Shown: positions 10,194 to 43,100 of the stretch, piece by piece | Layout of the letters: every line of letters begins with the position of its first letter | How positions within the stretch are numbered: the first letter of the stretch is position 1 | Origin: Psococerastis gibbosa | Taxonomy: Eukaryota; Arthropoda; Insecta; Psocodea; Psocidae | Reading direction: 5' to 3' | NCBI GenBank assembly: GCA_963971405.1 | Contig: OZ020487.1 | Location: 25,963,371-26,027,370 of the forward strand | Length of the DNA: 64,000 nucleotides | Program-made: the position numbers and the translations under genes | The notes under the pieces: generated by a model | Databases searched by the model: none | What the model was told of the DNA's origin: nothing | The model's input: the letters and a program-made list of their open reading frames with translations, nothing else

Positions 10194-13100
10194 GATACAT
10201 TTCACACAACTTAGTCTAAATAATAATTTAGCTAGAAAATGATCCCCATACTATCCGTTTGAGACGTATAATGCACTTTTTTTGCGATAGCTTAAGGCGG
10301 GGTTTCCACATACGACAATGATCAATGAGAAATATGAAATTGATGTGGTAGCAGACACTTTTAGTATGTCTTTAATGTCTGCTAAAACGTTAATTTCATA
10401 TTTCTCATTGACCATTGACGTATGTGGAAACCCCGCCTTGAATAAAACATATATACTATACAGCATCTTTACCTATATATCATAGTAGATTGTCAGGACA
10501 TGTAGCGTAGTGGTACGGACTCTGGCTTTCATCCGAAAGGTTGTTGGTTCGAGTCCCACACTGGCTACATTTTCTGGCCATGCTTCGGAGAGCATGTAAA
10601 GCAGGCGGTCCCGGGCCTTCCTAGTTGAATGTAAGAGAGGGCTTTATAGCCCTAACTCCGCTAGGTTGGCTTAGTAATAGAAACAATAAAAAGTCCTTAT
10701 TTATTTATTTAGATTGTTTTAAAGGGAAGCTTTGTTCAATTACCTCTCTAATTCCTAACTTCAATTTATATCAGAAGTTAGAGGATATGGAAAAAACTGG
10801 GCTTGGCTGGATTCGAACCCACGATCTACGCCTAACCGGAGCGTTATTTTAACCACTGGACCACAAGCGCCGATAAGACCAGTAATCTCCAAATCCTCTA
10901 CTTATGCTCTAATTGACATGATTCGTGTCGCTACACAGGTTAGCACAACTATCTAACCGAACAGGTCTGTGAGCTTACTTAATTGCATACAGGCAATGCT
11001 TTATTCAAGACACTGGGATATTACATGGTATATACTGTATAACACTGACATCAAATTAACTTTGGTTAATTTCGTTATAACCGAAGTTAGAGGATATGGA
11101 AGAATGGTTAAGACGACGCCCCGGTTAGGCGTAGATGGTGGGTTCGAATCCTGCCAAGCCAATGTTTTTTTCATATCCTCTAATATCGGTTATAACGAGG
11201 AGGTTACCTCTTCAACCAAAGTTAATTTGATGTCAGTGTTATTTATACCATATAATATTACAATTTATTCAATTTATATTTTCAGTGGAAGAGGTTGCGG
11301 TATTAGAGGAAGATGAAGAGTCAATCCGTCAGAAAAATGCACGGACTCGTCGAAAATCTAGGATAGGGCGACAGCATAGTTATGATGAAGAAGTTAAGGT
11401 AACTAAAATTTGACAGTTTTTCTTCGAATAAATTTCTTTCCTATTGAAAAACATGGAGAAATGACGTCAAATCCCAATGTTTTGATTATTTAGGTGCAAA
11501 CATTTTTAAATTGTAGCCAACGGCCATACCAAGTTAAATCCAAACTGCGGCAAACTTGGTAGTGTGCACAGCGTTTACGTGCTGAGGCTATACTAGTCAG
11601 TCTGAGTGCGTGTGGAGTCTTGGTCACCTCCGAATTAATCGTGTGACTTTAATAAGGTGGTCCACCCTGTCAGTCAACTCCCCCTCTCCCCTAGGTGAGG
11701 GTGCCTCAAAATAATAGAATGACTCACTCCCCCCGCCAGGCTGACTAGGTTGCTTAAAGCAGAAATGCTGAAACTATTGCATAGTTAATGTTTATTCTAT
11801 GCATTGCGATGGTTACATGAGCAGTAGGTAAGAATAAAAAAATGCTTTTTTCTCTTCTTTTTTTTCATAAAAAAAAGATTAATCGCATACAAAAATTTAA
11901 TGAATGTATCCGATTGACCTCTTCAGTCGCCTCTGTAGGTTAGTACCCGTGTTGAGTTACGACACTTCTCCGATCGCATGGCTTGTACCGACTCGCACAA
12001 GTGCAAGAACGTTACCACCTGGCCATTGAAGTCGACTGTAGGAATACTACTATACTATACGTACCACATGTATGTAAATTAAATTGGTTTAAAATTGTAA
12101 GCAAAAGAAGGAATTCTCAAATCCTCCGTGTATTATAATGTGCATAAGCATAATGAATGGGCTTGAGATGCAAACCCTCACTACGTAACCCCCTTTTTGC
12201 GTCCTTTATCCTCCTTCCACTCCCGGATCACTACTTTGAGAGAAAACAAATTATCCCTTCCAATTCACACATCCCTGGCCTAACCTTCTTCCTTTTCGGT
12301 AGAGGCGGTGAGGCTTTGGAACTGTGGCGGATCAGAAATGAAAAAGTTTTTATAGAAATGTAAGGTGCTTGTCACGACTTTTTATGCGTATGTATGGGGA
12401 GTGAATGGTGTGTAAATGGCCTTTTACTTTTTTAGTTAGATACTGTATGGTGTATATTAATCTTTTATTTTCTTTTTCAATTTAATTTGTAATAGCTTAT
12501 TTTACTTTGTACTTAGTGCTGGGGATTTATGCTTTGATTTTTATTGATTGTTCATTTCATTGTATTTTTTGTTATGGGTTAATTGTAAGAGTGAGCCAAG
12601 AGGCCCAAAATTCGCCCAAAAGGGAAATAAAGACAATTGTCTTTCATTCTTTCTTTCATAATGTTGCAGGCTGGTGGAAGTGGAGGTGCAACACTGGATG
12701 CGGGGTTGGGTGTTCCCGCATCCCTACCCAGGAGAGCCTCCGCTTATGATGTTTTCGCAGCACAACCTGGCAATGCTCCTACATTAGGGGCAGCTCCCGG
12801 AGGTCGAAGGGCTTCTTTTAGGATCGCCCCCAAACAGGAAGACTCTCCCGGTAAGTATCCCTTTTGGGGCCACTCCTACCACCATTGTTAATATTACCGA
12901 TTACGTGAGAAACCAGCGGCAGTTCAGTTCTTTTTCAGTGGTATTCCCTACCCCTCAAACTATTGGAAAATATTTGTTAGAAAGTTTACGATCGACGCCA
13001 GGAACTGGCCTTAGGATCCGATTTACTATCTTTCCAGCGGCAGGCCACATAAAGGGGATTACTGCTATATTATAGTGACACTATCTCACGAATCCCCCTA

Positions 13101-16100: not shown

Positions 16101-19100
16101 AATTTTTGAAATTTGTTTGCATTTGTTTTTTGAAATTTTGTTTGTATTTGTTTTCTTCGTACACTTATTATTTTTGAGAAATCCTAATAATAGTAAGAGA
16201 TCCGAAGTAAGATCGACCTTCACCGATCTGTTTAATGGATGAAAACTGTTTTATAGACAATATATCAAAATGTTTGTACCGTACTTAACATATTCCATGA
16301 CGCCATTTTAGTTTGTTATTGTTTGCAGCGCGTGATTTTACTCTATGATCATTGATCAATTTTAACTATAGCATGGAGTAAAATTGAAATGTCCTTCAAT
16401 TTCATATTTCTCATTGACGATTGACGTATGTGGAAACCCCGCCTAAGATCATCTCCTAGTAGTAGTATGGTTGGATACAGTCCCAGGCCACGGTGTGGGC
16501 CCATAGGACAGAAGATCATCTCCTAAACTTATATGTATTTCGAATTTTGTTTAAACAATGATGTCTTATTTTATTGTATCTACAGTAGACCTATCTACCT
16601 ACTGTATGTATGAAGCCCATATAGGTTAGTAATTTTTGACTCAATTCGTCACTGAGCATCTATACTTGCCCATATGGCCCATTCTTGTCAGTTTCCCAAG
16701 AATCATGGAGTTACTGAGCTCCGGATGCCCATTCAGCCCACCTGTTTCCAATATTGTACTTTCATCAATCAATCAACCAATCAATCAAATATATTTCCAA
16801 ACATACCGTTACAGTTGTTTTTTCATTTCCCTATGGGCTAGGCCCATTTAAGGGTGGCATTTTCTTTTTTCTTTTTAACTATATATACGAAAACAATACA
16901 GTTTAAAATGCATTATAAATAACTTAACTTGATAAATACTCATTATGCATAGCATTTCGTCAACTATAAATAATATAAATTAGTACCGTAAATATAATTC
17001 AATATTGCAATGCATTTATAAATTATTTTTAATTAATTAATTAATTCATTTATAAAGTCAATGAAACTCGGTGTTTCGTTATCTTCAATTCCGGGTCGCA
17101 CTATCGCAGGTATCAGTTTTCAAATTAAAAAATAACCTTCCGTCTAATATCGGCTAATATATATAGCAATGGAAATTTAATATGAACGGCTATTACTAAA
17201 TTAAGGGTAATCCGTTATAAAGTTGGGTGAATAAATTATTTTCTTTAATATTCATGATGTACTAGTTTAAGTAGGTTGGTAGTGGTTTCTACAAGATAAT
17301 TTGATGAAAAGTTATATATAAAACACTCTCGAGTGAAATAACCTTGAGGGGTTTGCTCGTAATTTATGATAAAGGATCCTTTAAAAACAACCTGGGAATT
17401 TCCCTAAACGATAATTACGGGAAAAATACAGACAGCTATACTACTAGTATATTCAGTGAAGCATAATAATGCAGAACTTTCCTTCAGTCTAATTTCAAAA
17501 TAGGTACCGTTAAGTAGGTAGTCTAACTTGAGGTACTTTTAAACTTTAAAGTTTATCTATTGTTCGTTCTCTCAGATATGCGTGATTAAGAAATATATAA
17601 AGAATTCCGGTAATTTGTGAGTTATGTGACCATTTCTTTATCGTTCTCAATGTCTCGACTTCAAAGAAAAAAACAGCATAATAATAGTAATTTTTCTTCT
17701 TCTGCTTCTTCGGCCCGTATTCCCTAGCGCCGAATGAATATATTTAAGAAATACGTTATTAACTATAGCCTACTATAGTAATACAAAATCCAAGTTAATA
17801 AACTCGTCGTGAGCTCTCAGAGTAAACGCTATAGATGATGCAACATGTTGTCTATTTCACGTCTGTGCAAAGAATCCAGTAATTTCATATCAATTCCATA
17901 CTACATTCACATTTTAAATAATAATAATAATAATAATAATAATAACTATGCCCTCCAATGGGTGTAATTCTTATCAAAACTCATGCGAGAGCAAATATAA
18001 CAATCTTTCTTATTATTAAAGAACCAGTAGAATCCGGGCTGATGGGCCGTGGTCGAAATGAAAGTGAACTTCCAAACGTTTCGTCAACATCTGCGGTCGA
18101 CATCTTCAGTGGAACTGCGTAGACTTCTAAGATTTTATCTTGGAGGCTCAGCAGCAACTGTGTGGACAGGGGGATGTGCTCTGATATTTATACTAAGTTG
18201 CAGGGTGGTGGGGGGTGGCTCCCTACTACCTTAACCTGGTTTCCGGATGATGACACCAGTTTCTTTGTTGTGGTTTTGTCTAAGGCCGGATACCAAATTC
18301 TGTTGACTTTCAGTCCTTCCTCTTTTCTATTGAAGTTGTGAGGGTGCTTGTAGATCTCTATAGCCTCTCTGCGTAACCGGGGGTGGTATGAAGAAGTTGT
18401 AGATAGTACTGTAGCATCCTGAAAGCGTATTATGTGACCGGTTTGTGTTAAAACATTCTCAGCAATTGCAGACTTTTCCGGCTGTAGAAGACAGCAGCTT
18501 CGTTTATGCTCATCATCTTTATGCTACGTTTTGTCGTACCTATGTACATATACTTCTCCACACGAACACGGAATACTGTAAACACCTGCTGACGTCAATG
18601 GGTCCCGGCTGTCCTTGGCTGATCTGTACAAACCAGACCCGTACCCAGGATTTAATTTTTTTTTTTTTGGGGGGGGGGGGCAAGAACAATTTTTTTTATA
18701 AATGATAGGTAGATCCGTAGGGATTTTATTAGTTTAAGCTTAAACTCTTACATTATTTATTTTTTATTATTTATTATTTTTATTATTTTTTTATGAAATT
18801 TAGGGGGGAATATGGCCCCCTTGGCCCTCCTTGGGTACGGGCCTGGTACAAACTATTTAATTGTCTCGTAGGCTTATAAATAGTCTTCACATTGTGCCGT
18901 AAGATGCCCATTCCACAGACCGGCTAGGGCTATTTACAAAAACGGTGACGTGGTAGCAGACATTAAAGACTTAGGCGAGGTTTCCACCGACCTCGCATTG
19001 CAGAATGCAAATGACATTGACAGAAATTAGAATTTTTCTTTTTATAGAAATCTATTAAAATGTTTGTACTTAACATATCCCATGACGCCATTTTTTAATT

Positions 19101-22100
19101 TTAGTTTGTTTGTGATTTTACTGTTTGATCATTGATCAATTTTAACTATGGCATAGAGGAAAATAAACATTTCCGTCAATTCTGCAATGCGAGGTCGATG
19201 GAAACCCAACCTAAGTCTTGAATATCTGCTACCACGTCACCGGTTTTGTAAATAGCCCTAGCCGGTCGGTGGAATGGGCGCCTTAGAAGAATTTACCTAT
19301 GCAATCTAAGACTCCTTTGATGAACGGAAGGCAAAGTAGGCCAGTAGTGTTCGGGGGTGCGTCTTGCCGAGCGGACCTATTCATGCGGGGTCGAATGGTG
19401 CGGGCTATTTCTCGTGTGCTGTATCCATTCGATTGCAGTGCCGTGTCTAAGTGCTTGAGTTCCCGTTGTAGAAATGTAGGTTCGCAGATCTTATTGGCAT
19501 GGTGGATGAGTGTTTTTATCATGGCTCGTTTTTGGCTCGGATGATGGTTAGAGTTCTTGTTCAAGTATCTATCCATGTGGGTTGGTTTTCGGTATACTGT
19601 ATGGCCTAGAGTTCCGTCTTCTTTCTTCGTTACCAGCACATCAAGAAAAGCTAACCGGCCATTGTTCTCCTGTTCCATGGTGAATTGGATGTTTGCATGA
19701 ACCGAGTTTTTATGATTCAGGAACTTCTCCAGGTTCTTTTTGCCGTGACTCCATACCACAAAGGTGTAATCAACATACCGGAACCAACATGCTGAGTTCA
19801 AAGCTGTATTTTCAAAGAACTCCATGTAGAAGTTGGTGACTACTGGACTGATTGAGCTACCCATCGCGACTCCATCCAATTGTTCATAGAAAGTCGAATT
19901 CCATTGATAATACGTCGTTGTGAGTACGTGGTGGAACAAAGCCGCGATGCCATCTGTGAATTTTTCTTTTATCAATTCTACAGTCTCATTGATTCGCACC
20001 ATAGTGAAGAGTAACACGACATCAAAGCTTACCAGTATATCATCAGGTTCCAGGCGAATAGTTTTCAGTTTTTTGACGAAGTGCGCAGAATCATTGATGA
20101 ACGACTCATTATCCCCTATATGCACCTGATGTCGACCGCAGATGTTGAGGAAACGTTTGGATGTTCGCTTTCATTTCGACCACGGCCCATCAGCCCGGAT
20201 TCCACTGGTTCTTCTATCGACTCGGGCCGTGAAAGCCTTTGCTGTTACATTTTTATTATTCTTTCTTATTCGATTTAGTAAACGGTAAATAATAGTGATA
20301 ATTATAGTGTATGATGATTCTTCAAACTTTAAAACATGAGCTCACTGGCAATAAAGTGTTAATGGCAGTCTTTTGTTGACTTTTCGGTTGCTAACTTGTG
20401 ATTTATTTATACATTGGACAATAATTATTTTTTTCCGGTCGCGGATATGTGACTGATGTGCAAAAATTAGATAAAAACAATCCTTGATGCGGATTATATA
20501 TCATGCTAAAATTTCAGCTCGATCGGTGCAAAATCTTTTGAGTTTTTGAAGCGTACACAAACGGAAAGAACATTTTTATATATAGCCTATATAGATAAAT
20601 GAATACATATAGGTATATCAAGTCGACTGGGAAAAATTAAATTTTAAAAATTTCGTACAAGCAGCCCAAGTTGGACAGGTACTTTACGCCTTATCACTAT
20701 TTGCTTTAAAGTTTTACGAATGGTAATTAATAATAAGCTATTATGTAAGTCTTAAATTGCCTGACTTGTGCATTGTCGCATTACATTTCGACCAGGCCGC
20801 AATTAGTTTTCTTTTAAGCTATGTCCACATTGTCCACAACTTGTCGACATGCCTGATGCCAATATGGCGGTTTAAAAAATAATTCAATTATTTTTTAAAG
20901 TTTTCATTAATATCTCGTCGGTGTTAAATTTCTATAATTTAAAAATTTAAACTGTTATTAGTGAAGTTGTGATTGTGACAGTTTGTGTCGAGGTTAATAA
21001 TGGGGAAAGGTGTAAAAGAGAAAGATGTGTGTGGCGCATGCAGAGATAGTGGATCAATGGTTGGCGTGTGATTCATGTCTTGTATGGTTTCATGTTAAAT
21101 GCATTGGGATCTCAACGGAAGCATACGGTATCATTTTGAACTTTGAAGCAATTAAAAGCAAAGATAAAACGAATGTTAAGGGGATAGCAGTGAATTGGTT
21201 CTGTGACTCGTGCCAGGGAAAAACAGAAAAGCAAGTTCAACTTGAGAAAAAAATGGATGTTATATCCAAAAAGTTAGACGATCTACCTAACTTGTTAATC
21301 GATTATTCTTCGAACGCTAAAAGTTACGCAAGTGTGGCGGCTGGAGATACTCACAAAAGATCTGCTTATTCACCAAGAGTAATTTTAAAGCCTAAAAAAC
21401 AACAAAATAAGGAGACTTCTATAAAAATGTTGAAAAATGTATTGTCAGCAAACAAAATACCTCTAAATAAAATACACTTTTCAGATGATGGGATAAAATT
21501 AGAATGCAATAGTGAAGCGTCATGTAGAATGATAAATAGCGTAATAGACAAAAATGAATATGAGGTCAAGTTACCGAAAGTTTTGCTTCCTAAAGTAAAA
21601 ATTGTTAATATTGAAGAATACGACTTGAGAGATACAAACGAGGAGGATTTGATAGAGGAGATAAAGCACCTCAATGACCTGGAAGATGCTAAAATTTTTA
21701 AGATTATAAAAAGGTACCAAAACAAATACAAAAAATGGACAGTGATTATTGAAGTAGACCCAGTTACCGCAAGGAAAATTATGAATAGAAAAAAATTGTT
21801 TGTAGGGCTACAATCTTACACTGTCTTTGAACACATATCTGTTAAACAATGCGGGAAATGTCTGATGTTCTCTCACTCAACAAGTGAATGTAATAAAGAA
21901 GAGAAGTCATGCGGAAAATGTGGCGATAATAGTCATATCTTTAAAAACTGTGATGCTGTTGAAGAATGCTGTGTTAATTGTTTGTACAAAAACCAGAAGT
22001 TCAAACTTGATCTCGATACCAACCATTCATCAATGTCATGGAGTTGTGCAGTCAGAAATGATATAGTAAATAGTATTAAAAAACGTATATCATCTATTCA

Positions 22101-25100
22101 AGAGTTCACAAATGCATAAAATTATTTATTGCAATATTGGCGGTCTAAGAAATAAGGATATTAGAGATTGTTATCAGCAACTTCAAACTCTAAACCCAGC
22201 TATTATTGCACTAAGTGAAACAAGAATTACAAGTATTAATGATAAATCAGAATATGCCCTAAATGGGTATTTGCCGGTTGTTGTGGAGTCGAACTCAAGT
22301 CGTACGGGAGGTGTGATTTGCTATGTAAAAAATGAGTTCCCAGTAAAAAATATTAGAATGCTTGCTGTTGACTGGTGTTTCTGGGCTGTCAGTTTTGAAG
22401 TGAAGGGAATAAGAATTGGGGTATACTACAGATCTCCGTCGTTGTCAATATTAGCATCACTTGAGCATATGAGAACCTGGTTGGTAGATTTATACTGCGG
22501 CGATTTAACTGTTCTTATTATGGGCGACATGAATATTAATTGGCTTAAACCAAACAATTGGGACACCAAAAAAGTTAAGTGCCTGATGGACAGTATGAAC
22601 TTGACACAAATTATGCCGGACTCCACTCGAGTAACAGATGTCTCCGAGACGTTAATTGACCTAATATTTACAAACAATGTGAACATAAAGTGTAAATCGG
22701 ACTATAGATTCAAATTGTCAGATCATGAAACACTGTTAGTTCATGTCCCGGATATATTTGTTTGCAAGAATGAAGAGAAGTACCTGTGTTTTAAAGGAGC
22801 CATTGATTTTGAAGTATTTGTCCAGAATCTGAGAAATTCTATACATAACCTGCACTTAACTAATGATCCTGAAGAAGATTGTGTAAACTATATGAAATTC
22901 ATGAACAAGCATGTTGAAGAAGCACGTAAACCTGACGTAAAGATTGCAAAGAATTTATATTCACCTTTTTTCACGCAGGAAGTAGTCTTTGCTCGATTGG
23001 AAAAAAATAGAGCGTATATTAGATTTAAATGGTCAAAAACTCATCAAGCTGCTGATCTGAACGAGAGGTGGGCTGAATATAAGGCACGTAGAAACAAATT
23101 TGTATCAGTGTTGCGAAAAAATAAAAGACTATATTATTAAAAAAAAATAGAAGAGTTTCAAGACGACAGTTTTCGTCTGTGGCAGGTAATCAGAGAAGCC
23201 ATGAATGTCAAGAAATCCTGTGTGGAGAAAATTGAAGTGAATGGAGAACTCTGTGAGGATAAGATAATAGTGGGGAATGAGTTAAATAAATATTTCATAA
23301 AGAGCATTGCTGATCTTAAGGAGGATATTGTTAAACAATCACCAAAAGAGGTGGACCTCAATGTAATTCCGATGACTGAAGAGTGTATATCAGAGTTTAT
23401 GTTACCAAATGACGAAGAAATTTTAAAACTAGTTAAAAAGAGTAAGACAAAAAAAGGGTCACAACCCAATTTGGATACGTTACTGAAATGCTGGGATGTT
23501 GTCGGTCCAACATTTTGCTTAATTATGCGGAGTAGTCTTGAAAAAGGAGTTGTTCCCAGCTGCTTAAAAGTGTCTACTGTCACTGCTTTACCAAAGATAC
23601 GAAATACTTGTAAGAAAAAAGAAATGAGGCCTATAAATGTTCTACCTGGTCCGGAGAAAGTGCTGGAAAGCATTGTTTATGAACAGATATTGCAATTTTG
23701 TGCAAACAAAAATATTTTATCGAAATTTCAATCAGGCTTTCGCTCTAAGCACTCAACAGAAACGGCGATCAACTATGTTATTGAGGATTGGCTGCAGGCC
23801 ATGGATCGTGGTGAAATAGTAGCAGCGGTCTTCTTAGATTTTAAACGTGCGTTTGAAACGATTGATAGGCAGATTTTACTTAAGAAATTGTGGAGAATGG
23901 GTTTCCGAGGAACAGTGTATAAATGGCTCAAAAGTTACCTGACAAAAAGAAGACAGAAAGTAAACTTCGGTGGTGTCCAATCTCAAGAAGAAGACAATGA
24001 TCTTGGTGTTCCACAGGGTTCCAAACTTGGACCCTTGCTCTTTATTTTGTATATTAATGAAATGCCAGACCTTCTCAGACACTGCCTTATCCATCTGTTT
24101 GCGGATGATACAATGATTTACAAATATCTGAAGACAGAGCATGATCAGGCAGCTATCGATGAACTTATAAGTGATTTGAATGTTATTCGGGAATGGCTCA
24201 CGTCTAATTTCCTATCACTGAATGCCTCGAAGACCAAAGTTTTGTTTATTGGTGGGAGTGGATCACGTGATGAATATTTACCTATTAAGATTGGAAACGA
24301 AGTGATAACACCTGTACAGTCTATCAAATATCTAGGGATCACTATTGATAACCGTCTCAATCTAATGGACCACTATGCTGAAGTTCTTTCAAGTGTAAAG
24401 ACAAAAATTGGAGTTGTGAAGAGGCTATGGTTCCTACCTCGAAGTTGTAGAATAACTCTTTTCAAAACATTGATTAAACCACATGTGAATTATTGTCAAT
24501 CACTGTTTGTACATGCGCCCGTCCACATTACAAACCAAGTTCAAATACTCCTAAACGATGGAATGAGAGCGGCCCTAAATATTCGAGTGGCGAGGGAGGT
24601 TCCACGAAAAGTGTTATATGAGCAAATTGGAGTCATTCCACTGCTTGATGAAATGTACGTTCATGTAATGATTCTGTTGCACAAGGTAAAACTGCAAGAA
24701 TGCCCAAGTTATATGGTTGACAAGACTAGGAGAGTAAATAAAGTCCACTCATACAGTACACGCCGAGCTAGAAATTTTTATTATGAATTGTCAAATTCTG
24801 GAAGAGGAAGAAAATCTATCTTTAAGGAATGGGTATCAAAATACAATCAACTAAGTTACGAACTAAAGAACATAACTGAGATTTCGAAATTTAAAGTTGC
24901 CCTGACGAAGAAGATCCAAGAAAGTTAAGAAGATGAGAAGTTGATGATGTTGCGGTCAACAAATTAGCAGCTGCTGCTACCATGTTCAACAACAACAACA
25001 ACAACAACAACATTACGTTTTTTTGGCGCCCAACCAACCAACCAACCAAAAAATGCAATGCTTATAGAATAAGTGGTTAGTGCTGTATTAGTGGATTATA

Positions 25101-28100
25101 TAGTTATTCTTTTTCTGTGAAAGTTTAGTGCAATTGTGGCAGTATGGGGAGTAAAGGTGGATTCGTTTGTATTGATTTCAGACCTGATTTGGCCAATTTC
25201 CGCGGACTTCATCAGCCGGTGGTTGCCAAAACTGGTGCACCGCCAGTAACAACCACTTCAGTTCTCCGACAGCCTTCCTGTGACGGGGAAGCTATTAAAA
25301 TTGTCATCGACGACGTGGACAGTGATGCTGCTTTTGGTGAGTTTCATTACTTCCATTAGAAACTTAGAAGCTTCGAATTCTAATCTAGCTAACTTAACTT
25401 AATCTTTAACAAACCTTCAATTAGCCAATCACTTCAACATTCACGGGTTTAGACAGTAGTAGCATATTACTTACAAATTACCATTGGAGTAAAAAACAAT
25501 AAATAATATACAGTATAAAGCTTTTTAAGAAAAAGTATAAAGCTTTTTAAGAAAAAGCTAGTCAACAAAGGGGCCTCAACAGAAATACTTTTTAGTGTAG
25601 TTTAATACTTCATTAATATTTTATCGGACTCCCCTCCCCATCAGTTTTAAGTTCTTATGTAAGATTTTATTTCTCATTTCTTTTAGTGCCCACATGGCGA
25701 TTTCATATTATATAAACTGTTTTTAACTTTGTAATTTTTAATAACGTTAAACCATACCCACGGGCCATCACCAAATTGCGGTAGATCATATAAATTAGTA
25801 CAACGTAGTGTAAGGAAAGCTTTGTGATGGTCGAAATTTTCGATTTGGAGATTTTAGTGGATTTACACGTTTTGAGGTACCAGGAACCAAAAAAATGTTT
25901 TTTTTTGCGAAATGTCTGCCTGCCTGTTCGTCGATTTGTAGGCAAACTACTCGGTGAATATACCGGTAGATGAAATTTGGCAAAAGTCAAGTTTAAGTTT
26001 TACTTATGTAACCTAATTACACGTCCAATGCATTAAATAGTCTAAGTAATACATTTTGATGGATGCTGTGACATCCGTTAATCTTTGTTGGATCATGGTT
26101 GCCGTCCGTACAGTTCAAATTAATTTATTCTTATGCAGGTAAATCCTAAAGAACTGTAAAAATGAACTATTTTGACTTTTTTTTTTTTTTTTTTGAAAAT
26201 TGACCTACAAATATTAATTGCATGCATACTCCAGTTAAAAAGTTAATTAATACTTCGAGAATACAACTCCATCTATAACTAAATGGGGTGAAGGCTGATG
26301 ATAAATCATTCTGATTGGGAAAGTTGCGAGTAATTTTCGAGTTCCCCATCTCAATTAAGAGCTTCATTAAAACTATGCTATGTATTGTAATATCAGCCCG
26401 CTATGGCGAAGGGAACGACTTCAATATGTTTTCGGCCAGTGGGCCTATACTATGCCGTTTAGTATTAACTTAATCCGGGGGTATGTATTGTAATAACTGA
26501 CCGCTATGGCGAAGGGAACGATTTGAATATGAAGGCAGAGAAAAACAATGTTTTAGGCCAGTGGGTCTACTATGCCGTTTAGTATTAACATAATCCGGGG
26601 GTTAAAAATGTAACAAAACAATTTTGAATAGCCCTTTCCATTCTAAAATTATCTTGTTTACATCCTTATTCCTTGGTTAAGTTAATACCAAACGACATGT
26701 CGGCATAGTAGGCCCGCAGCGACTGCTTTTGCTTTGCAGGGGATCTGTAGTACTTTTAAAAATGAGCCACAAAGAAACTACCGCACTTCATCGCGTTGCA
26801 GCTTCCTTATATGTGGGGAAATTATGTATATACCTAGGTATATATATATATTTTTTTTTAATTTATAGGCGCTGGACTCTTTCGAGTATTTGCGCCGGTC
26901 AGTGTTTGTGTGTGTGGAGGTGTCGAATTATTTGGTTACTGTTGGTAGTTCTGATAGTATCAGGATAGAATAATAATCAGGCAGAACCTAAAAACAGAAC
27001 CAAGCTACTTCGATTGAGCGAACAAATTTGAGCAATTTACTTTTGAGAAAGCTATAGGCAGGTACTATAAAATGTAATATCCCCGTATGTGTCGTTTTAT
27101 CATCCATATATTCTTCTCGTGATATGAAGGTATGTAAATGTACCGTAGCAAAATTATATAAGGTGGTTTCCATGAAAAGAAAAAGGCTATAACGTCGGAA
27201 GAGCAACATGTGTAATAATAGGGCAAGTTTTATGGCCCAGTTTATGAGACCGGGCTCGCCGAACGAGCCACTTCCTTTGCGAGTTGCCATCCTGTCGGAC
27301 TCGATCGCTCCTAATTTACTCGTAATGGGTGCCACAAACATTCGAGAGCTTAGCAGCAAGCACGTATGTTTTTATAAGGGGGGGGGGGGGCAATGAACCC
27401 AGAAACATTCAGCCTGACTTCCTGACTTTGTTTCTGAAGATTTTAAAACAATGTACAGCAGTTGAAATATACCTATATATAGATATTTAAACTTTTTTTG
27501 CTGACGGAGGCATATTTTTTTAGAAAAAAAAAAACCTGGCTAGCTTATCTTCTGGAGCTATAATGGAGCAGTTCTGTATGGATGTCCATAGAGTAATTTA
27601 CATAATTAATAGAGTTGATTAGTTGAGGTTGGGTTCAACCATTTTGCTAAACGATAGTTGTCCGCAATGACTTATTGTTATAAATTATTTGGCAGTGGTT
27701 ATTTTCATTAAAAATGTCCAAATGCCGATATGTACCTACTATGTGTCCTGTGGTATAGTGTAATGTAATGTACAGTATATAGGGGAATTATACTGTATGT
27801 TGTAGCCTGTATAATGTTTTAAGCAGTATGTGGTCCCACATCCGTTTTCTACTTGGAAGGTAGTCTAGTAGTCTAGCAATATACTGTAAATAAAGTCGAG
27901 CAATATACTGTAAATTTGTTAATGTACTATTGCACTTTACTTTTACTTGTACGCCGCGTTCCTCAAGGAGGGTTTCCAGATTTCAAGGCGTTTCCAGATA
28001 ACCATAAATCACCTCACTCATTTGCCAATTTATGAAGGCTGTGCTTAATCCAAGATAGGGGTTCTCTCGTGACTTCGTGGAAACAAAACATAATGTGTAA

Positions 28101-31100
28101 AGTATTAAAATCAAACAAATTTGCACAATTTCCACATAAACATATATATTGTTAAAAGTTAAAAAATTAAAAATCATTTACAGCTGTTTCGATGTTACAC
28201 CATCATCAGACTAACAAGTTTCTACCTGACATTGAGAACTCCAGAAGGTCAGGTGTTTACCAACTGTGCTGCAATAACTGTAATGTTACTTATATTGGCC
28301 AAACAGGCCGCAACTTCAAAAATCGGATCAACGAGCACCGCAGGGCAGTTGGTAAACAAGATTGCGACTCAGCTTTCGCGGAACACTTAACTACCTCTGG
28401 ACATACTTCGGAATTCTCAACTTTTAAAGTTTTACATGACTGCCGGAAGGGATCTTAGACAGATTAGAGTGTATTGAAATAAAAAAACATTGTTTAATGG
28501 TTGTAATCTGGTAAATGACATAACTTTCATACATCTTTCCCCACTCCTCGACCTGGCTGCAACTATTCTCCTCCCCCCTCCCATCATGGTTTAGAGCTTA
28601 ATGTCAGGTAGAAACTTGTTAGTCTGATGATGGTGTAACACCGAAACAGCTGTAACTGATTTTTAATTTTTTAACTTTTAACTTACATTTGAGGTGTCAC
28701 TTGCCATGCTTTAGGTGACCCATTCCCACGCTTCGCCACCCTTCCCGTTCAGGCGCAGGTTCAGGTACGATTTGTATAGTTAACTTGACAACTCTTGTAA
28801 TAAGCTTTTATTTAAGGTGCAACATGCCACATGATGTCATTTGATATTTTAAAGAAATTTAATCTCAAACTTTAGCTGTTTACTGTACCTGAACTAAAAA
28901 ACTCAGGTACACCAAGGTAAGATCATCAAGTACTCCTATTTTTTCTCTATCAGAAAATCTGGTTTTGACTTTTAGCGTTCAGGACACTAACAGCCCACAG
29001 GTACCCAAACTTTGACTTATAAAGACTCCCTGTACCTGAACCTGTAGGGATACAATCAAAATTTTTGCAAATTATGAATGAACGCTTTATAAGCTTTCAA
29101 ATGATGTGCAATTTGACATACCTTTACATTTGATTATTCCGAGAAACAGCATACGGACCCCCCCCCCCCCAAAACCCCCCTTCCTGGTCCCCAAAAAATT
29201 CCAAACTAATTTCCAGAAATGCATCAACCCCCACTGTGTTTTCGAGGAAAAGTAGGTGGACGGATGATCTGGAGCACCCTGTATATGTTTATGTGGAAAT
29301 TGTGCAAATTTGTTTGATTTTAATATTTTACACATTAGGCTGTGGAAGGCAATAATGTAATGGTTTTTTATAAATTTTAAGCTATTGTATTACCCACTCC
29401 TTCACTTTTACTACTTTTTATATTGTAGTTGTATATAATTATTATTTTTTGTTTTCCACGATTTATACTAGTATTATAGGCCTAGCCTACTTAACTGTTC
29501 GATTAGAATTTTTGGTACAATGTAATTGGTGTAAAACTGTATTGTACAAATAAAACAAAATGTTCCTAAACAGCCACGGTACAAGCACATACCAGTGGTT
29601 TATTAAATGCAGAGCTTTCAGAGAAATCCCCATGGGACATTCACTGAAGATATTAATAATAAACGAAATAATGTTTATTCAAAAAGCATCTTCTCCCGCA
29701 TTGCAAGCAGCACAGCGTTTAATTCTTCACCGTCATGTTCCACTTATATTAAATCAAAATACGTATTCTGCAAGCTAGCTTGAATATCTCTACACAAAAT
29801 TTTCTCGCAGAACATGGGATAAAAGGGGAGATGGGAAGTTTCATAAAATATTGTGATTGTGAGTTTATATAGAGTCTCTTATTTATTCATGAATATTGTA
29901 CTTACTGTACATGAGATGGGATCTATCGTATATCTATAATCATAAGCACAGAATTTGGGGTGAGAAGCGGCTCTCGGGCCCACAAGACCTGGTCTAGACG
30001 ATATTGTTGGTATTGTAAAAATGGACCTCTTTCAAACAGGAATCCATTGAAATCCAATGTTTGGTTGGGCATATAATTGGAATGATCTCATTGGTTGGGT
30101 GCTAGCATTTCCCTATAAGAAAGAGGTCAGTGGTTATTAGATCTATAGTACTCTGAATGGGAATTTTTATTTATCTTTCAGTTGCCCGTCCTGGTTCTAA
30201 GCGAAGGGTAATTTTACGTAGAGATTCTGCAGATATTGCACCGAGGAGTAAGTACTCAAATACTACTATAATCAGCAATCCCTTAATAGCTTACCATACA
30301 TTACTACAATAATATTTATATCTTTCTTGCTATCAGATTTGAAAATTTTCCCACTTGTGTAAAATGGATACAACAATATAATATATAATATATAATATAT
30401 ACAATGCATAATATATATAATATAATAATGACTACAGTATTGTCATCAATCAGTAACATGATAGGCTACACAGGTCTATACTATTGTAAGTTTAGCTATT
30501 CTTGACAGAATTAAAAATTCCTGAATTACAACAGGTCTTGCAGTTATAATTTAAAAGGAGTCTCACTCTAATTTGGGACTTGGGGGGTTTCACTCGTTTC
30601 AGTACTATGTGACAATAAATTGAATAATCGTGTTTTGCCTTTCCCAATACTAATTCCCTTCCTCTTAATTAAATATGAAAGCAATAAAAGATTTATTTTT
30701 AGTACCTATTTAGTAAACAAAATCTCAAAGCATTTTGATGGTTTGGTTGGTGCAGCCAGAGGCTTTGGAATGAGGGTGGTGGGGGGCAAAGCCTCCATTG
30801 ATGGCCGATTGTTTGCGTACATTGTGTGGACGGTACCTGGTGGGCCGGCGGAAAAAGCAGGACTTCAGCAAGGCGACAAGGTAAGCAACCACTAATTATC
30901 TTCTGAGCTCAGGTATCAAAGCTTTCAACACATTCAGTATCTTCTTTAACGGTATTACCGAGGTGATTTCCAGAAGACCTTGTCTCTCTCAATTGCTCAT
31001 TGCAGTGGGCGCAAGCCCGGCCAATTTTTTTTAATATTCAAATATGAGTAATTAATTTAGTGTAATAACTTCCAAGAAGGTCCGCATTTTCTATATTAGA

Positions 31101-34100
31101 TTTATTATACGCCTTAAGAGAAAGACAAATTTATAGAAGGAAAAAGGGGAAAAGTAAGAAATATTCTTTTATAAGATTGTTACAAGTCGTTCTACTTATT
31201 ATAAATATTACATAGCTCCTACCGTATGAAATTGTTATACCGTCTTTTATGAAGGCCTACTTACTGTATTTGAAATTTAATTTAGGTTTTAGAATGGTGT
31301 GGAGTGCCTCTGATGGATCGAAGTTTTGAGGAAGTGAGTGCCGTTATGGACCGATCAGGGGATGTTGTGGAACTTTTTGTTGAGCATGCCAACGACTTGT
31401 AAGTAACTATGATCTTTATTAGTTATATATTGTATGTTATTTTACAATAGATGCCATTGCTCCAATTGTTTTGCTTTCCTATTGATATGCTTTTTGGTGG
31501 TTGAAATGTTTTACACCAAAAAATGACTAAAACTGTTTTTTTTCAAAAACGGCTTCGACAGTTTCTTTTAAACTCATATATACTATATTATATATACTGT
31601 ATTATTAAACCACCCCCACTATGTCATCCCCCTGATCATTTTGTTGAGGCTATAAAAAAAAACTTTTGAATGAAAAATGACCGAAAAATTATTTTCTTGG
31701 GGAACCACTCTATCAATGCTTTCTAATTTCAGGTATATATATGTTTTAGGTGCTAAAATTGTAACAAAACCGAATAGATTGCTTTCCTAAACAAGCTTTT
31801 GGATTCGAAGAAACTTCAGACATTATCGATAATGCATTGCTTACCTTACTATTTTTATTGTGCAGTAATATATTATTGGCCTGTCCATTGTAGACTATGA
31901 AATTGTCCTATCGATCAATATTGTGCTTTCTGATAAGGAAAAGCAATTCACAGCCGATATTTAACATGGAACAATTACAGTATCTATACTAACTGATAAA
32001 TAGGAAAGCATACACGGGTTGACTCCTACCGGTTCTTTCAATTTGAAATTTGCCAATTTGCCAGCAATTTGCCAATTTGCCTTCCTAGTCGAATACAATA
32101 GAGGCAGAGCATATTTTAAGAAATTTTCACTGCGTGGCACAAATTGAAATCCTATTATTCTATATTACACAGTCTATATAACAGTGTAAATTTCGATTGT
32201 ACTTATCTACCCCCCCCCCCCATCCCCTCCGTAAATAAGTTCAGATTAGGTCTACTATTTTTAATAATGGGCTATATATACCTAGTTCTAAAAAAGTCAC
32301 TCTTTTTCTAGATTATTACCAAAACCATTCATATTTCAAAAAGGAAAATAATTATTTAAATTGTCCAAATACGTAACTTTTGACTACTTTTTCTTATTTT
32401 TCTAATTTTGTTAGTCATGGAATTTGAAATTTGTGGCCAATTTGTGTGGGGCAATATCACCTTACTGGAGGGCTTCCTTAAAATATGCTCTGAAGAGAGG
32501 GCTTTGTAGCCCTAGAGGTTTGCTTAGTAATGTAATAAAAATGAATTATCAATTTATTCATAATAACCGATTTCTCGTCGGCTAACATGTCTACTTGTTA
32601 TTTTTTTTAGAAGAATGTGTGATCTGTTGGATGATCCGGCTACTATTACTGCGCCATCTTCCAGAAAGAACTCAGGTGCGGAAGCCCTTGGCCTGGCTCT
32701 AGGTATGCTTGTTTCATGTTTCACCTTCTCTAGAATGAAATATCCGCCTACAGGTACTAAAAGGTTAAGGGCCAAAACTACCAACTTCTCATAATAGGCA
32801 TCCTTGCACGAGTATATAATGTCAATTTAACACAGTAAATGCCGGTTAGTTTCAGAGTTAAATTTTGTTACTTTTCAATTGCTTTACAAGCTGAATTTTT
32901 TTTGACGCAATAAAAAAAAATTCCATTTACTTTCTTTATTTACCGCCTCCTATGCTCATCAAACAGTGGTGACATGTACGAAGAAGTTAGTAGTTTGGCC
33001 ACATAATTCATTTCTGTTTTTAAACTGAAAGTGCCTATACTGTACTTACTAATCCATTAGGCTTAGGCTATTTTTACCATTTTATCGACTTCGATGGCCA
33101 GGTGGTAGCGTGCTTGTACTTGTACGAGTCTCTACACGCCATGCGATCGGAGACGTGTCGTAACTCGACACAAGTACCTATTAGGTAACTTAGTGAGGCG
33201 ACTGAAGAGGTCAATCGGATACATTCATTGAATTGTTTGTATGCGATTAACCTTTACGTAAGAAAAACAAAAACAAACAAAACCATCAAACCATTAAAGC
33301 AACGGTTCGGAGTGTCAATTCAATGCACCTCATTAAATACAATGACGCGCGAGTTCGTGTTATTTCAAAATAATATTGTAATACCGTATACCTACTGTAT
33401 AGATTAAATTCATGACATGCATTGAAATGTCGCCCTGAATCGTAACTTACTTGGTTTATTGATACTGTTTAGTTTTCTTTCAACTCACTTTCAGACAACA
33501 GTACCTTTTTGTGATCCTGTCTTAACATTTCAGTATGGCCTAATTTCTTGAATCGTCTCTTATTATATCGTAAAACCTTCAAATGATCTTTGTGCCTGTG
33601 AACTATCGACTGCTCAATGTGTATCACCAGATAATTTGTGGCAACCTTAATAATTTGTTTTGATTGCTCGCTTTTGCTCTTGTCTTTTAAGAGTTCTCAC
33701 ATGGACTACACGTTATAAAGCTGGGGGCACTAGGAATCGAAATACAAATACACATTTTGTATACATTGTTAGTTAGATTTCTATTTTTCTTAACTTAATA
33801 ATACAGTTATGTGAGTACCCTTTTCATCGATGTGCTGTTTTTGTCTAGCTTTCGATGTTTTTTTTTCAATTCAGTCAAGAAATGAAACATGAGACCTAGA
33901 GATAGGCTTTTGGCCTATTTGGTTTAATCATATAACCCACTTGTTGTCAGTTATTAATATTGCAGCTTTGTGTGCTAACAAGCTAGGCTACATTGAGATA
34001 GGCTATATTGAGTCCTTGATGGCTTCATAACATAAGCCTAGAATTCACTTCCACTTGTTCGGAAGAAATTGGACCGCCTACTATACGGTACCTATCTGTT

Positions 34101-37100: not shown

Positions 37101-40100
37101 TATTTGATAGAGATGTATAGCCTAAATAGTCAACATCAGATGTCTTCTGTCTAAACTCTCTAACTCTCATTTCTCTCATTAATAGTCTACTTTATATATA
37201 TTTTAATACAAACTGTTGAATGTTTGTTTTATTTTTATATGTTTATATTTGTTTATAGTACCGTATATATTTAATTTACCAAATAAGGGGAAATCAAAAT
37301 CATAATCGAGTATACTTTCAACCTACCGGTATGTGAATTATTTAATTATGAAATTGAATAAGTTAATATTTATAAGGTTAATTATCTTTTTGGCATGTAC
37401 TGAGTACTAATTACCCATATTGAAAGTATATTTTTTTCCCATAGATTTCTATTTTGACTGAACTGCCTCAACTATATTGTACTTCATTTTACTATCTGAT
37501 AATTCGTATTGTTGATCCCAAGTACAATACAATAATGTATTGTATATTTAACTGAGTGATATTCTAGCATAATATATATGTATCATTTATGTCTTAACTA
37601 TTAACCTTCTATCTACGAAACCGACAGCTGATAATGTATGGTTTCTTTCTGTACCGTGGTTCTGCAGGCCTACTATGGCGATTATTTTAATCTTAACCTG
37701 GGATTAAAAATGTAAACAATATAATTTTACAATGGAAAGTGCTATTCAAAATTGGTTTTTTTACCTTTTTAACACCAGGATTAAGCTAATACTAAACGGC
37801 ATAATGGGCCTGCTGGAGGGGGCACTATTTATTTTTTGCCTTGGCGCGGTAACTAAAAATTGACAATTCCCATTCGCAATTTTTCACTTTGCGGTGTCTG
37901 CCCCCCTCCCTTTTTCACCACCAATGATTATCAGTTTTATTTTACGATTACATTTACAAGAAATATGTTCTTGCACATTATGCCAATCCCGTACACTGAA
38001 GACTCAGCCGATTGAATATTTATCACTATAATTAGAGACAATATTGAGACAGTTCAGATTAAGTTTTTAGTTGAGTTTAATGAAACATTTTGGCTACCTA
38101 CACAAACAATACCATATATACCATATGTACATTACAACCTGGTAAAATAATATCATTTTGGTTTGTTTTTTTGTTTCTTTTTTTACCACACGCAGCTACT
38201 AATTTGCACTTGCTGCTTAATTAATGTAGGCCTCAGTGCCGGGTTTGGCTATGGGGCACTGTGGGCCCGGGCCCCAGGGCCCCCACAAAAATGGGGCCCC
38301 CACAAAACGAAAAAATACAAATAAAAAATTGAAAAAATTAAAAAAAATCAAAACAGATAACTTTTTAAATTTTCGCGGGAAATTCGAACGCATCGTGGCA
38401 TTAATGACTCATTTTTGATAAAAATTTAACAAAAAATGAAGTATGTCCACTCCTGCTCTGAAACCACGATTGTTTTGCTTCATTAAATACAAATTGAAAA
38501 TTTGAAATCAAATTTCTAAATTGAAACTACTTTTATCAGCACTTTCTGGTTGGTATATTGTTAAGGTAAGTAGCATAAGTTAATTCTTATATTAGAGGCG
38601 GAAGTACCTAATAGTTGTTCTTTATAAGATAAGGTCCTTATTTTTCGTATTCTGCGCCCATTTACCACAATTCACAGAACGCATCAAAACTTTGTAAGCC
38701 TATTAATTTTAATACGAAATGTGCCCAGCCACGTGGTCGCCACAAAATCGAGCACGTTATAAATATAAAATTCATTGGTCTAAAATGTTATATGTCATAA
38801 AATGTTATATTATAAGACGCATGATTCGGAATTTTGAGATGTTTTATACAAAAGGGGATAAAAAATAAAATGTATTCGATTTTGTGGTGACCACGTGGCT
38901 GCACATTTCATCTTAAGTAGGGCAATAGGAACAAGTGGACTAGATAATTAGGCTCTGGCTAGTGAGTTCTGAAAAAACTAATTTATTACAATTTTTATTT
39001 TTGATTCCGTAGTGAAATAATGGATCGTCACAAGGGAAAACGCGAATATGCAAGCGGCAGTGAAAAGCGGAAAATCGCAGCAGATAAAGAAAACAAAATT
39101 CAAGATGTTTTATCTAAAACGCGCCGTATAACGGATTTTGTAACAAAAATAGAGACGGGTCCATCTACTCCTAGTTCTACTTCTAATTTTGTTGAAATGA
39201 TGAGTGGTGATTCTGATTTTCCTGCATCTTCTCAAGTTATTGCTAGCCCTACCCAAGAGGTAAGAGTTTGACTTTAATTACTTAATTAAGGTGACCGCAA
39301 TCAAAAATTACCGACCCCACTCACCCCAGTAATTCTTATGGAATTAAAAATGGGGGACTCCTGTTAATTTACTGTATGAATTAAACCTACCTAAACTTGA
39401 GTCGGCCATGCCGAAAGGATTGTTTACAAAATTAATTACAACTGTAATTGTTTTACTTGTAGGCAGTAATTGATAACAATGACGAATCCGAAAATACTGC
39501 TGATGATGGATTTTGCAAAGAAAATGACGTGGGATTGTGGCCAGCAGTTCTTAGTCAACAACACATCGACTATTGGATCAAGAAAGGAAATTTGGAAACT
39601 CAGCATTGTAATGAAGATATTTTGAAAGAAAAAAGCTTGGGACAAGTAGATGCAGTGAAAAGAAGAAAATGCCATGCAAGTTTATTCCTTCGTCAAACTC
39701 AGGCAGGCAAGTCTATAAGCCGCTCTTGGTTATGTTTTTCACCTAGTACGGGGAAGCTATACTGCTTTTATTGTAAATTGCTCTGCAAATCAGCAAATCA
39801 GTTTTCAACTGAAGGGTTTGCTGACTGGAAGCATGCGTCTGAGCGTTTGAAAAGACATGAAACTACCGTAACGCATTTGCAAATAGTTTGCCAATTTAAG
39901 CATCTCTCAAACGAGGCAATGCGTATTGATCGTGAGTTGGCCACACAAGTGAAGGAGAGCATTGCTTATTGGCGAAACGTTCTAAACAGATTGATTTCCG
40001 TCATAATATTTCTTTCTGGACGAGGACTTGCCTTTCGAGGGGACAACGAAATTTTGGGATCAACCAAAAATGGCAATTATTTGGGAGTCCTTGAGCTAAT

Positions 40101-43100
40101 TGCACAATATGATCCGTTTTTAGTAGGCCACTTAGAGAAGCATGGAAATCGTGGCAGTGGTAGTGGCGGCGTTAACTACCTATCTGCCCACATTTGCGAA
40201 GAATTAATTGCGCTGATGTCCACCAAAGTTAGCGATGAAATAATTAAACGCTTAAAAGCCTGCAAATATTATTCGGTTTCGGTAGATTCAACAACTGACG
40301 AAGGCCATATAGATCAAATGACTGTGATTGTCAGGTATCTAGAAGAAAGCACACCAAAGGAAAGATTTCTTAGTTTTATGCCAAACCAAGGCCATAAAGC
40401 TAAAGAATTATTTGATGGCCTCAACAAAGTTTTAAAAAAGTTCGGCCTGGATTTGAAAGATATTCGTGGGCAGTCGTATGACAATGCTTCCGCTATGAGT
40501 GGAGAATATAGTGGTCTACGCACTTTGGTGCTAAATGAGAATCCTTTGGCTTTATGGGTTCCATGTTTCAATCATTCCCTCAACTTAGTGGGCACAAAAG
40601 CGATGGACTCCTGCTCCCAATCGAAATTATTTTTTAGCTTTCTTGAGCAAATTTATGTATTTTTTACAAGTTCCACAGCTCGGTTCAACGTCCTTTCAAA
40701 TGTTCTAAAAAGTGCTGCGAAGAAGTATGGCCACAACATACCAGTGCCCAAAAGAATCAGTTTAACCCGGTGGTCCTCAAGAGCGGAAGCTACTAATAGC
40801 CTAGTTTTGGGCTATAACGAAATACGAGAAGTCCTTAAAGATCTCTCCGAAGAAGATGTCCAAGCAAGTGGACTCTATTTGCAAATTACCACGTTGGAGA
40901 TAGCAATTTACGCTGTTCTTTGGAACGATATACTGGCAAGGGTGAATGCAGTAAACATCAATCTCCAGAATCCAAGAATCGACATTAATACTTCGATCAG
41001 TGTGATGGAGTCCCTTAAGATCTTCATTGGGGAATTTAGGGATTCTTTCCAAGAATATGAGAAAAAGGGTGTTGAATTGTGTGGGCACAATTCTTATAAA
41101 TCGGAAACTTTGCGGAAGCGGATCCGAAATGTGAGGCTAAATCCTTTGGATTATGGGAAAACTGAGGAAGCTGAATTCAGTCATAGCGAGAAATTCCGAA
41201 TCGAAAGTTTCATTCCCATAATTGACCAGTTTATGCAATCATTGGATCGGAGAATTTCAGCATATGAAGACATAAATAGGAAATTTGGATTTTTACAATA
41301 TTTAGAAAAAATAAGCCCTGATGATTTGAAAACTAGGGCAGAGAACCTGGTGAGTTGTTACACAGGTGACTTGGACGGTAACTTGTACTTCGAGCTAGTA
41401 CAGTTTCGTGAGTTTGTGAAATTATTTGTGATAGATGATGCACAAAAAAACAATATAATCGAAGAAAAACGTATCAGTTTTGAACGGTTCATGTACAATT
41501 TGATTTTAGAAAGAGGAGTAGCTGATAGCTTTCCCAATGTAGAAGTACTTTTGAAGATGTACTTAGTTATAATGAGTGGCAACATAAGCAGCGAGCGATC
41601 TTTTTCCGTACTAAAACACATAAAAAATCCTCGTCGCACCAGTTCTTCTGAAGCTCGGCTTAGCCATCTTTCAATGCTGAATATAAATCACGACATAGTG
41701 GCAGCGTTAAATTATGACGATATAATTGACAGTTTTGCTGTAATAAAGAGTCGAAGAGTGCATCTTTAAATAAATTAAAATTTTGTGTTTATAATTAGGT
41801 ACCTATTAATTTATTCCTTTTAAAAATACACCGCAGTGTCTACAGCTTTAGTTGAGTAGCCCTTAGGCTTGTATTGTACTATTGACTTGACTTTATATTA
41901 CTAAGAATCGCTTTTCTTTTTTATAATGATTTTGCAACCTGTGTCACCATTTTATAATTTATTGTGGGATATTCGTCTAAGGGGATTAGAAATTTCTCCC
42001 CGAGAAAGGGCCCCCACATAATTCGGGCCCACGGGCCCCCACAAGCCCAAACCCGGCACTGGTAGGCCTAACCCAGCTGTTTCTTCATTCTATTCGTTTG
42101 CGGAAGCAATTATAATTATTTTCTTTTCAGCTTTCTTGACTTAGCCTAAGATAATATTAATAGTAATCATTAGTGACTAAGATCTTGTCGTACCCTTGTT
42201 TAAATCCTACATCTAATGACATACTTATACCATTTATACGTTACCGTATATTATAAAATTAATATTGAATTTAAGGGGAAAAGGCGGCAACACTTCTAAT
42301 TAGGTACTGCATTATTTTTAACTTAAAAGAGCTGTGATATTTTCATCTGATGACAAACTTTTTATACCTTGCGCAAACTGTTTCTGTTTGGCTCACCTTT
42401 TTGTGGGGATTTTATTTAATGTTATTGAAACTAAGTACAGTATACACACCTACTGTACACCAACTTACGTCCTGATATTTAATGCTTAACTGGAATCAAA
42501 TTACACAATATTCAAGGTACCTCGTATTTTGGCGGCCGTTAATGATATATAGCCTAATGTTAATCAATATGGTGCAATATCAAACCATGACAAAGCTTTC
42601 GTTTGAAAATTAATACATCTGTTTTAGGCTACCTTTCGATTACGGTATAAACCATCATTAAATTTGTAGCCAGCCAATGTAGGCACTATTCCGGAACCTA
42701 CAATAACAATAGCATTGAGTAATTTTTCCAAAGTTGTATTGTGGTGTAATTTGATTCCAATATAAGTCTTACGGCACCTACCTATAGTGTTTTCTGGCAG
42801 TAAGCCTTCATTCTATGGTTTTACCAAGCTTTATGTCATATAGTTATGTTAATTGTACTAGAACTGTCTGCATATATTATATGATGTGTAGGTAACGTAA
42901 TTAAGCTGAAGACAGCATATTTCGATTCTTAAAAAAAAAAAAAACTAAATACCAGTAGTAGTCCGATAAATTGCCTGAAATAATCTACTGTATCCCACAG
43001 TCACCCAATGAAATCATTAACATAAACACGTGTCTGTAGATTCCGACAATAAGTTATAAGTAGGTAGTTAAATGTTGTGTAAATTATAATTAGCCCCTTC

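Follow-up and report, generated by a model that had tools for sequence, protein, structure and literature searches.

A predicted minimal hammerhead motif in the repeat of a Penelope-like element within an intron of a putative RIM gene of Psococerastis gibbosa

We analysed a stretch of 64,000 nucleotides from the psocid Psococerastis gibbosa (GCA_963971405.1, contig OZ020487.1, positions 25,963,371 to 26,027,370), hereafter called the window, whose positions are counted from its first letter. On its plus strand, positions 28619-28659 fit the minimal type I hammerhead. We consider that this is probably the pLTR hammerhead of a Penelope-like element (PLE), carried by a dead copy and silenced by a hairpin in the intron in which it lies. 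The motif, a predicted ribozyme, adds to a known kind, the minimal hammerhead of Penelope-like elements. Its parts are as follows.

28619-28623 (+): 5' strand of stem I, TTAGT, pairing with 28655-28659
28624-28630 (+): conserved core C3-A9, CTGATGA
28631 (+): extra U between A9 and stem II
28632-28642 (+): stem II, with GGTG (28632-28635), loop TAA and CACC (28639-28642)
28643-28645 (+): core GAA (G12 A13 A14)
28646-28653 (+): palindromic stem III, ACAGCTGT
28654-28659 (+): H17 (A28654), predicted cut at 28654/28655, then the 3' strand of stem I, ACTGA

The features by which a hammerhead is recognized, namely a CUGANGA and GAA core, an A15.1-U16.1 pair and a base other than G at position 17, are all present at 28619-28659. 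Three helices close the core and the fold is open at stem I, with a stem III that is short in the monomer and with one extra base. Stem I comprises five pairs, one of them G-U, and a sixth pair, G28618-U28660, also G-U, is possible. The 8-nt palindrome of stem III allows two pairs around a four-base loop in a monomer, and eight pairs would be possible between two molecules. No contact between stem I and loop II was seen in this motif. The folding energy of the 50-nt stretch was unexceptional (z = -0.53), and its minimum free energy (MFE) structure pairs the CUG of the core with a CAG; for the isolated motif, a non-hammerhead fold was computed at -7.4 kcal/mol against -3.4 kcal/mol for the hammerhead, in a calculation that leaves out tertiary contacts. 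A preliminary description of this DNA had proposed CTGATGA, a stem II, GAAA, a self-complementary stem III and a five-pair stem I, all of which our reading of the letters recovers at exact coordinates, and its cut after 28654 agrees with the one predicted here. The extra U at 28631 was absent from that description, and its fold stands with this one addition.

The same description had placed the motif in the right repeat of a Penelope element, an assignment that is supported by an endonuclease remnant, by the repeats and by the reverse transcriptase of relatives. The features of the window copy are the following.

28597-28682 (+): right repeat, holding the motif and part of the tail
28151-28236 (-): left repeat, inverted
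28171-28455 (+): stop-free frame with a remnant of a GIY-YIG endonuclease (PF01541, E = 3.4e-08)

Across 86 nt, the left and right repeats show 97% complementarity, and 360 nt separate the two. The motif of the left repeat (28187-28209, minus strand) keeps the core, contains one G-U pair in stem II and a G-A mismatch in stem I, and was rejected by the descriptor that is given below. The tail of the element continues leftwards, at least to about 28091 as judged by likeness to relatives. The window copy ends at 28682 and is without a reverse transcriptase, and in relatives (for example, loci L054 and L009) a Penelope-type reverse transcriptase lies upstream of the motif on the same strand. The traits of a Penelope-like element were therefore all found, that is, the GIY-YIG domain, the reverse transcriptase (in relatives) and direct or inverted pLTRs with an optional tail. 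A partner repeat on the opposite strand was present within 3.1 kb at 17 of 30 loci from the search with the right repeat, which correspond to 10 of 23 distinct places after overlaps were merged by hand. The window copy itself is a dead, 5'-truncated insertion, with an endonuclease remnant between one inverted and one direct repeat.

From 119 loci fetched from the genome, 116 distinct matches to the core pattern were obtained, and these belong mainly to two subfamilies, one of which has a stem I of three pairs. Four representative strings were identical from AGT to H17 apart from three columns (N7, one base of loop II and H17), each of which is a tolerant position in a hammerhead. The base after A9, which was left free in the pattern, was T in 113 of the 116 copies, C in two and A in one. 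At position 17, A, C and T occurred 50, 28 and 23 times, respectively, and G not at all in the 101 of 116 copies that carry AGCTGT, and a stricter pattern applied genome-wide gave A, C or T in 154 cases and G in one; because the copies share recent ancestry, these counts over copies are not independent. Position 17 obeys the hammerhead rule that H17 is not G. For stem II in further relatives, 42 distinct strings occurred among the 100 of 357 matches listed, of which 26 keep four standard pairs and 16 have at least one broken pair. Two of the 42 carry a two-sided change in which A-U replaces G-C at the first pair, and we regard such apparent covariation among close relatives as weak. At least 43 pieces of the genome, including the two of the window itself, matched the 101-bp right repeat when 40 of 305 candidates were scored. 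Further relatives in the genome share GAAACAGCTGT and have other stem II loops (e.g. TCCAC and TTAT); the 3' strand of their stem II reads CACC or CACT.

We scanned both strands of the 64-kb window using a descriptor with zero or one inserted base, a stem I of at least four pairs (G-U allowed), a stem II of at least four pairs, GAAA, a palindromic stem III and an H17 other than G, and obtained two matches, at 28624 (+) and 18109 (-). The looser string CTGANGA-gap-GAAA was found 13 times in the window, compared with 2.2 expected. Four of these 13 strings (28624, 28187, 18079 and 51056) belong to the motif's own family and to a second one, and the descriptor accepted only 28624 and the 18079-18109 site. 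The other nine strings (22869, 24902, 25197, 26295, 29644, 39500, 41318, 46190 and 61343) failed the descriptor, and 25197 and 29644 were additionally inspected with their flanks. The second match belongs to a different Penelope-like family, which is represented in the window by the following features.

18069-18115 (-): second hammerhead fit, found by the descriptor
19283-20170 (-): reverse transcriptase frame beside this hammerhead
20119-20163 (+): third copy of the second family, inverted, found by a covariance model of that family
51046-51092 (-): further copy of the second family, with stem I down to three pairs

In this second family, stem I is TTCCA/TGGAA, stem II is GTCGA/TTGAC, stem III is ACGT (ACGCGT in the copy at locus L120) and H17 is U. 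The core is identical to that of the first family and the extra U is in the same place (18109, minus strand), and stems I, II and III differ with their pairing kept. As a comparison between predicted structures, the second family is the strongest comparative point for the fold. The reverse transcriptase frame at 19283-20170 is related to the reverse transcriptase adjoining the motif at loci L054, L009, L013 and L014. When 40 of 2087 candidates were scored, a 121-bp piece of the second family had at least 49 matching pieces in the genome. The stretch 18069-20170 on the minus strand can itself be described as a second Penelope-like element, with a hammerhead, a reverse transcriptase frame and an inverted hammerhead copy.

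The covariance models spoke against a straightforward assignment to a family. The preliminary description had proposed a scan with the Rfam hammerhead families and had taken a missing match as evidence against the fold, and no hammerhead was in fact reported by Rfam cmscan in the whole window at gathering thresholds, or at E ≤ 10 in a permissive scan of 28100-28760. A search with RF00008 gave no match in this genome and none in any of its 14 control genomes, and it therefore carries no weight. A covariance model built on three second-family copies had 25 matches at E ≤ 10, from which 28624 was missing. We do not give the missing Rfam match decisive weight. The literature describes PLE hammerheads as rare and atypical minimal variants (PMC7229834; PMC6155905), which would make a failure of curated models to report them unsurprising, although the scans included no established PLE hammerhead as a positive control. 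Moreover, a match to a curated model is a criterion of the tool and not a defining trait of a hammerhead. The sole Rfam match in the window was a tRNA at 10798-10870 on the minus strand (34.6 bits, threshold 29), which contains several non-standard pairs and is perhaps a tRNA-derived repeat.

Minimal hammerheads of Penelope-like elements were reportedly described by Cervera and De la Pena in 2014, and small hammerhead variants are said to cleave as dimers, as Lunse, Weinberg and Breaker are reported to have found in 2017. The window motif resembles the published PLE hammerheads in element class, in type I order and in its minimal stem III, and also in the lack of an evident contact between stem I and loop II and in a palindromic stem III suited to dimers. 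A possible difference from them is the extra U after A9 that is present in both window families.

One relative, PAc, a Poseidon element of Anolis carolinensis, has been assayed with purified protein; it resembles the window element in having a repeat plus an optional tail. The hammerhead of PAc cut RNA only when this protein was present, mutants incapable of cutting were still inserted in vitro, and no RNA-seq read had its start or end at the cut (PMC11167929). If the anole element is taken as a guide, the extra U might be part of a start codon of the element; this was rejected, because the ATG that overlaps the extra U in the window family, in contrast to PAc, opens a frame that runs into a stop before its eleventh codon in the copies listed for both subfamilies. 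Such elements are known to carry pLTRs in inverted and direct orientation, with a tail as an option (PMC11167929; PMC3846280). In particular, the Penelope families of Adineta vaga are like those described here in their direct and inverted pLTRs, optional tail and head-to-head inverted junctions (PMC3846280), whereas the word hammerhead is absent from the main text of that paper. Judging from these relatives, the RNA of a living element would cut itself once per repeat, and this cleavage would probably require either pairing of two motifs by way of the palindromic stem III or the assistance of a protein of the element.

The copies in the genome also suggest where the template RNA may begin. Homology upstream of the core was judged against two short upstream references in a sample from which copies starting inside the core are necessarily absent, and 53 of the 116 distinct copies had at most nine bases of such homology. 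In 35 of these 53, homology ended at AGT, the three bases directly ahead of the core. The preceding 12 bases were different in each of the 35 copies, and an inverted piece of the same motif was found within 60 nt before AGT in 15 of the 35. A straightforward interpretation would have the template RNA begin at AGT (28621 in the window), perhaps as a transcription start, and this clustering of copy starts is possibly new. None of 156 distinct matches in a left-repeat BLAST over the fetched loci started at the ribozyme cut (query position 62), in a sample in which downstream starts are under-represented, since most of these loci had been selected because their core was intact. Many BLAST starts fell at position 28, which is where the similarity of the other subfamily stops, and are not junctions. 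Hammerhead cleavage as the source of the 5' end of the template is thus unsupported by these 156 matches, with the under-sampling of downstream starts taken into account. We tentatively extend the AGT reading to a single module of transcription start and ribozyme with self-cleavage that is one-sided along the RNA, a proposal we consider rather doubtful. Under it, the motif at the 5' end of the transcript would have a stem I of three pairs and be weak, and the motif of the downstream repeat would, in the window's subfamily, have five or six stem I pairs and could cut; self-cleavage would therefore be one-sided.

A related possibility is that the motif is degenerate and non-catalytic, that its fold is kept merely through descent from a few source elements, and that it serves in another role such as a promoter or a reverse-transcription signal. 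The extra U in the core, the three-pair stem I of one subfamily, the missing Rfam match and the clustering of genomic starts at AGT just before the core would all fit this reading, as would the insertion of anole hammerhead mutants in vitro (PMC11167929). However, the differences between the subfamilies are confined to tolerant positions, H17 is G in only one of 155 cases, the second family retains the fold in a different sequence, and an extra nucleotide has reportedly been described in the core of a viroid hammerhead (reference 28 of PMC6155905). We therefore consider a degenerate motif unlikely and favor a predicted ribozyme of the PLE type.

We further considered what the motif might do where it has landed. 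The exons that define the surrounding gene are listed below.

30695-30886 (+): first PDZ exon detected after the insertion (PF00595, 22.6 bits, slightly below the Pfam cut-off of 23.2)
about 31286-31400 (+): next PDZ exon
48820-49008 (+): C2-domain exon (6.5e-09)

The first of these PDZ exons begins about 2 kb downstream of the insertion. The joined PDZ peptide matches the PDZ chains of RIM1 and RIM2, but the chains of DLG4 and KIAA0559 score higher; neither 52212-52478 nor 54241-54456, the candidate frames for a further C2 region, matched a C2 domain. A PDZ domain followed by a C2 domain on one strand is consistent with RIM, the presumed identity of this gene. The motif is on the same strand as these exons, in agreement with its earlier placement on the sense strand of the RIM gene. 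The length of 4.8 kb previously given to the intron could not be confirmed, and with a GT donor at 25337 the intron would measure about 5.4 kb; the possible upstream exon, which ends at 25336 before GTGAGT, is only a guess and has no Pfam match. Elsewhere in the window, a LINE-like element at 21016-24928 (+) contains successive frames for a PHD-like finger (below the Pfam cut-off), an endonuclease/exonuclease and a reverse transcriptase, and a 768-codon open frame with DUF4371 (39463-41766, plus strand) probably encodes a DNA-transposon protein inside the same gene. A kinesin motor exon on the opposite strand (60779-62017, minus) probably belongs to a neighboring gene.

Within the pre-mRNA of this gene, the motif is predicted to be trapped by its inverted sister repeat. 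The two arms formed 80 pairs in the MFE fold of 28140-28700 (-215.9 kcal/mol), and 41 of the 43 motif nucleotides paired with the left arm in this predicted fold, with a mean probability of 0.95. When stems I and II were enforced, the energy was -150.4 kcal/mol, that is, a cost of 65.5 kcal/mol, so that by this prediction, which concerns equilibrium only, the motif would not be free to fold in the pre-mRNA. In the cell, RNA folds co-transcriptionally with proteins bound, and the equilibrium energy of a hairpin is no proof of silencing. The left arm is transcribed before the motif, and the 86-bp hairpin should therefore trap the motif, which would seldom or never cut; RIM would then be spliced as with any intronic insertion.

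The preliminary description had suggested that the ribozyme, if active, would cut the RIM pre-mRNA inside the intron. Cleavage at 28654 that lowers or tunes splicing would be compatible with the correct strand, the intact core and an H17 that the hammerhead rule allows, and the natural intronic ribozyme Cpeb3 has been reported to tune splicing (PMC10919898). Nevertheless, the inverted 86-nt copy is within the same transcript, the anole relative was uncut without protein (PMC11167929), and the same repeat is present on many contigs. Moreover, splicing was reportedly impaired by intronic ribozymes that cut fast and unaffected by those that cut slowly (Fong 2009, as cited in PMC10919898). The motif shares with Cpeb3 and with the human intronic hammerheads a self-cleaving motif, an intronic position and the sense strand, whereas Cpeb3 is described as a functionally conserved ribozyme of a single gene (PMC10919898), and the motif described here is one of hundreds of repeat copies and has an inverted copy opposite. 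Because of the predicted folds and the behavior of relatives, cleavage of the RIM pre-mRNA at this copy appears unlikely, and an active role in tuning RIM splicing is highly improbable; the suggestion is left unsupported by the inverted copy, by the energetic cost of freeing the motif and by the protein dependence of the anole relative.

Finally, the motif is short and its local fold reaches a z-score of only -0.53, but a chance resemblance has a negligible probability and was rejected, given that the descriptor had no match in 200 dinucleotide-preserving shuffles of the window and that the core with this stem II had 271 matches in the 409-Mb genome, compared with none for a reversed control pattern.

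These results provide a well-supported further example of Penelope-like hammerheads, with two families in one animal genome, and they present a case of a hammerhead that is unreported by Rfam models. They also call for caution, because a ribozyme motif on the sense strand of an intron may face an inverted sister repeat, and its cutting should not be assumed. If the clustering of copy starts at AGT is confirmed, it would tie the ribozyme to the transcription start of the element and would make the unsettled role of these hammerheads testable.
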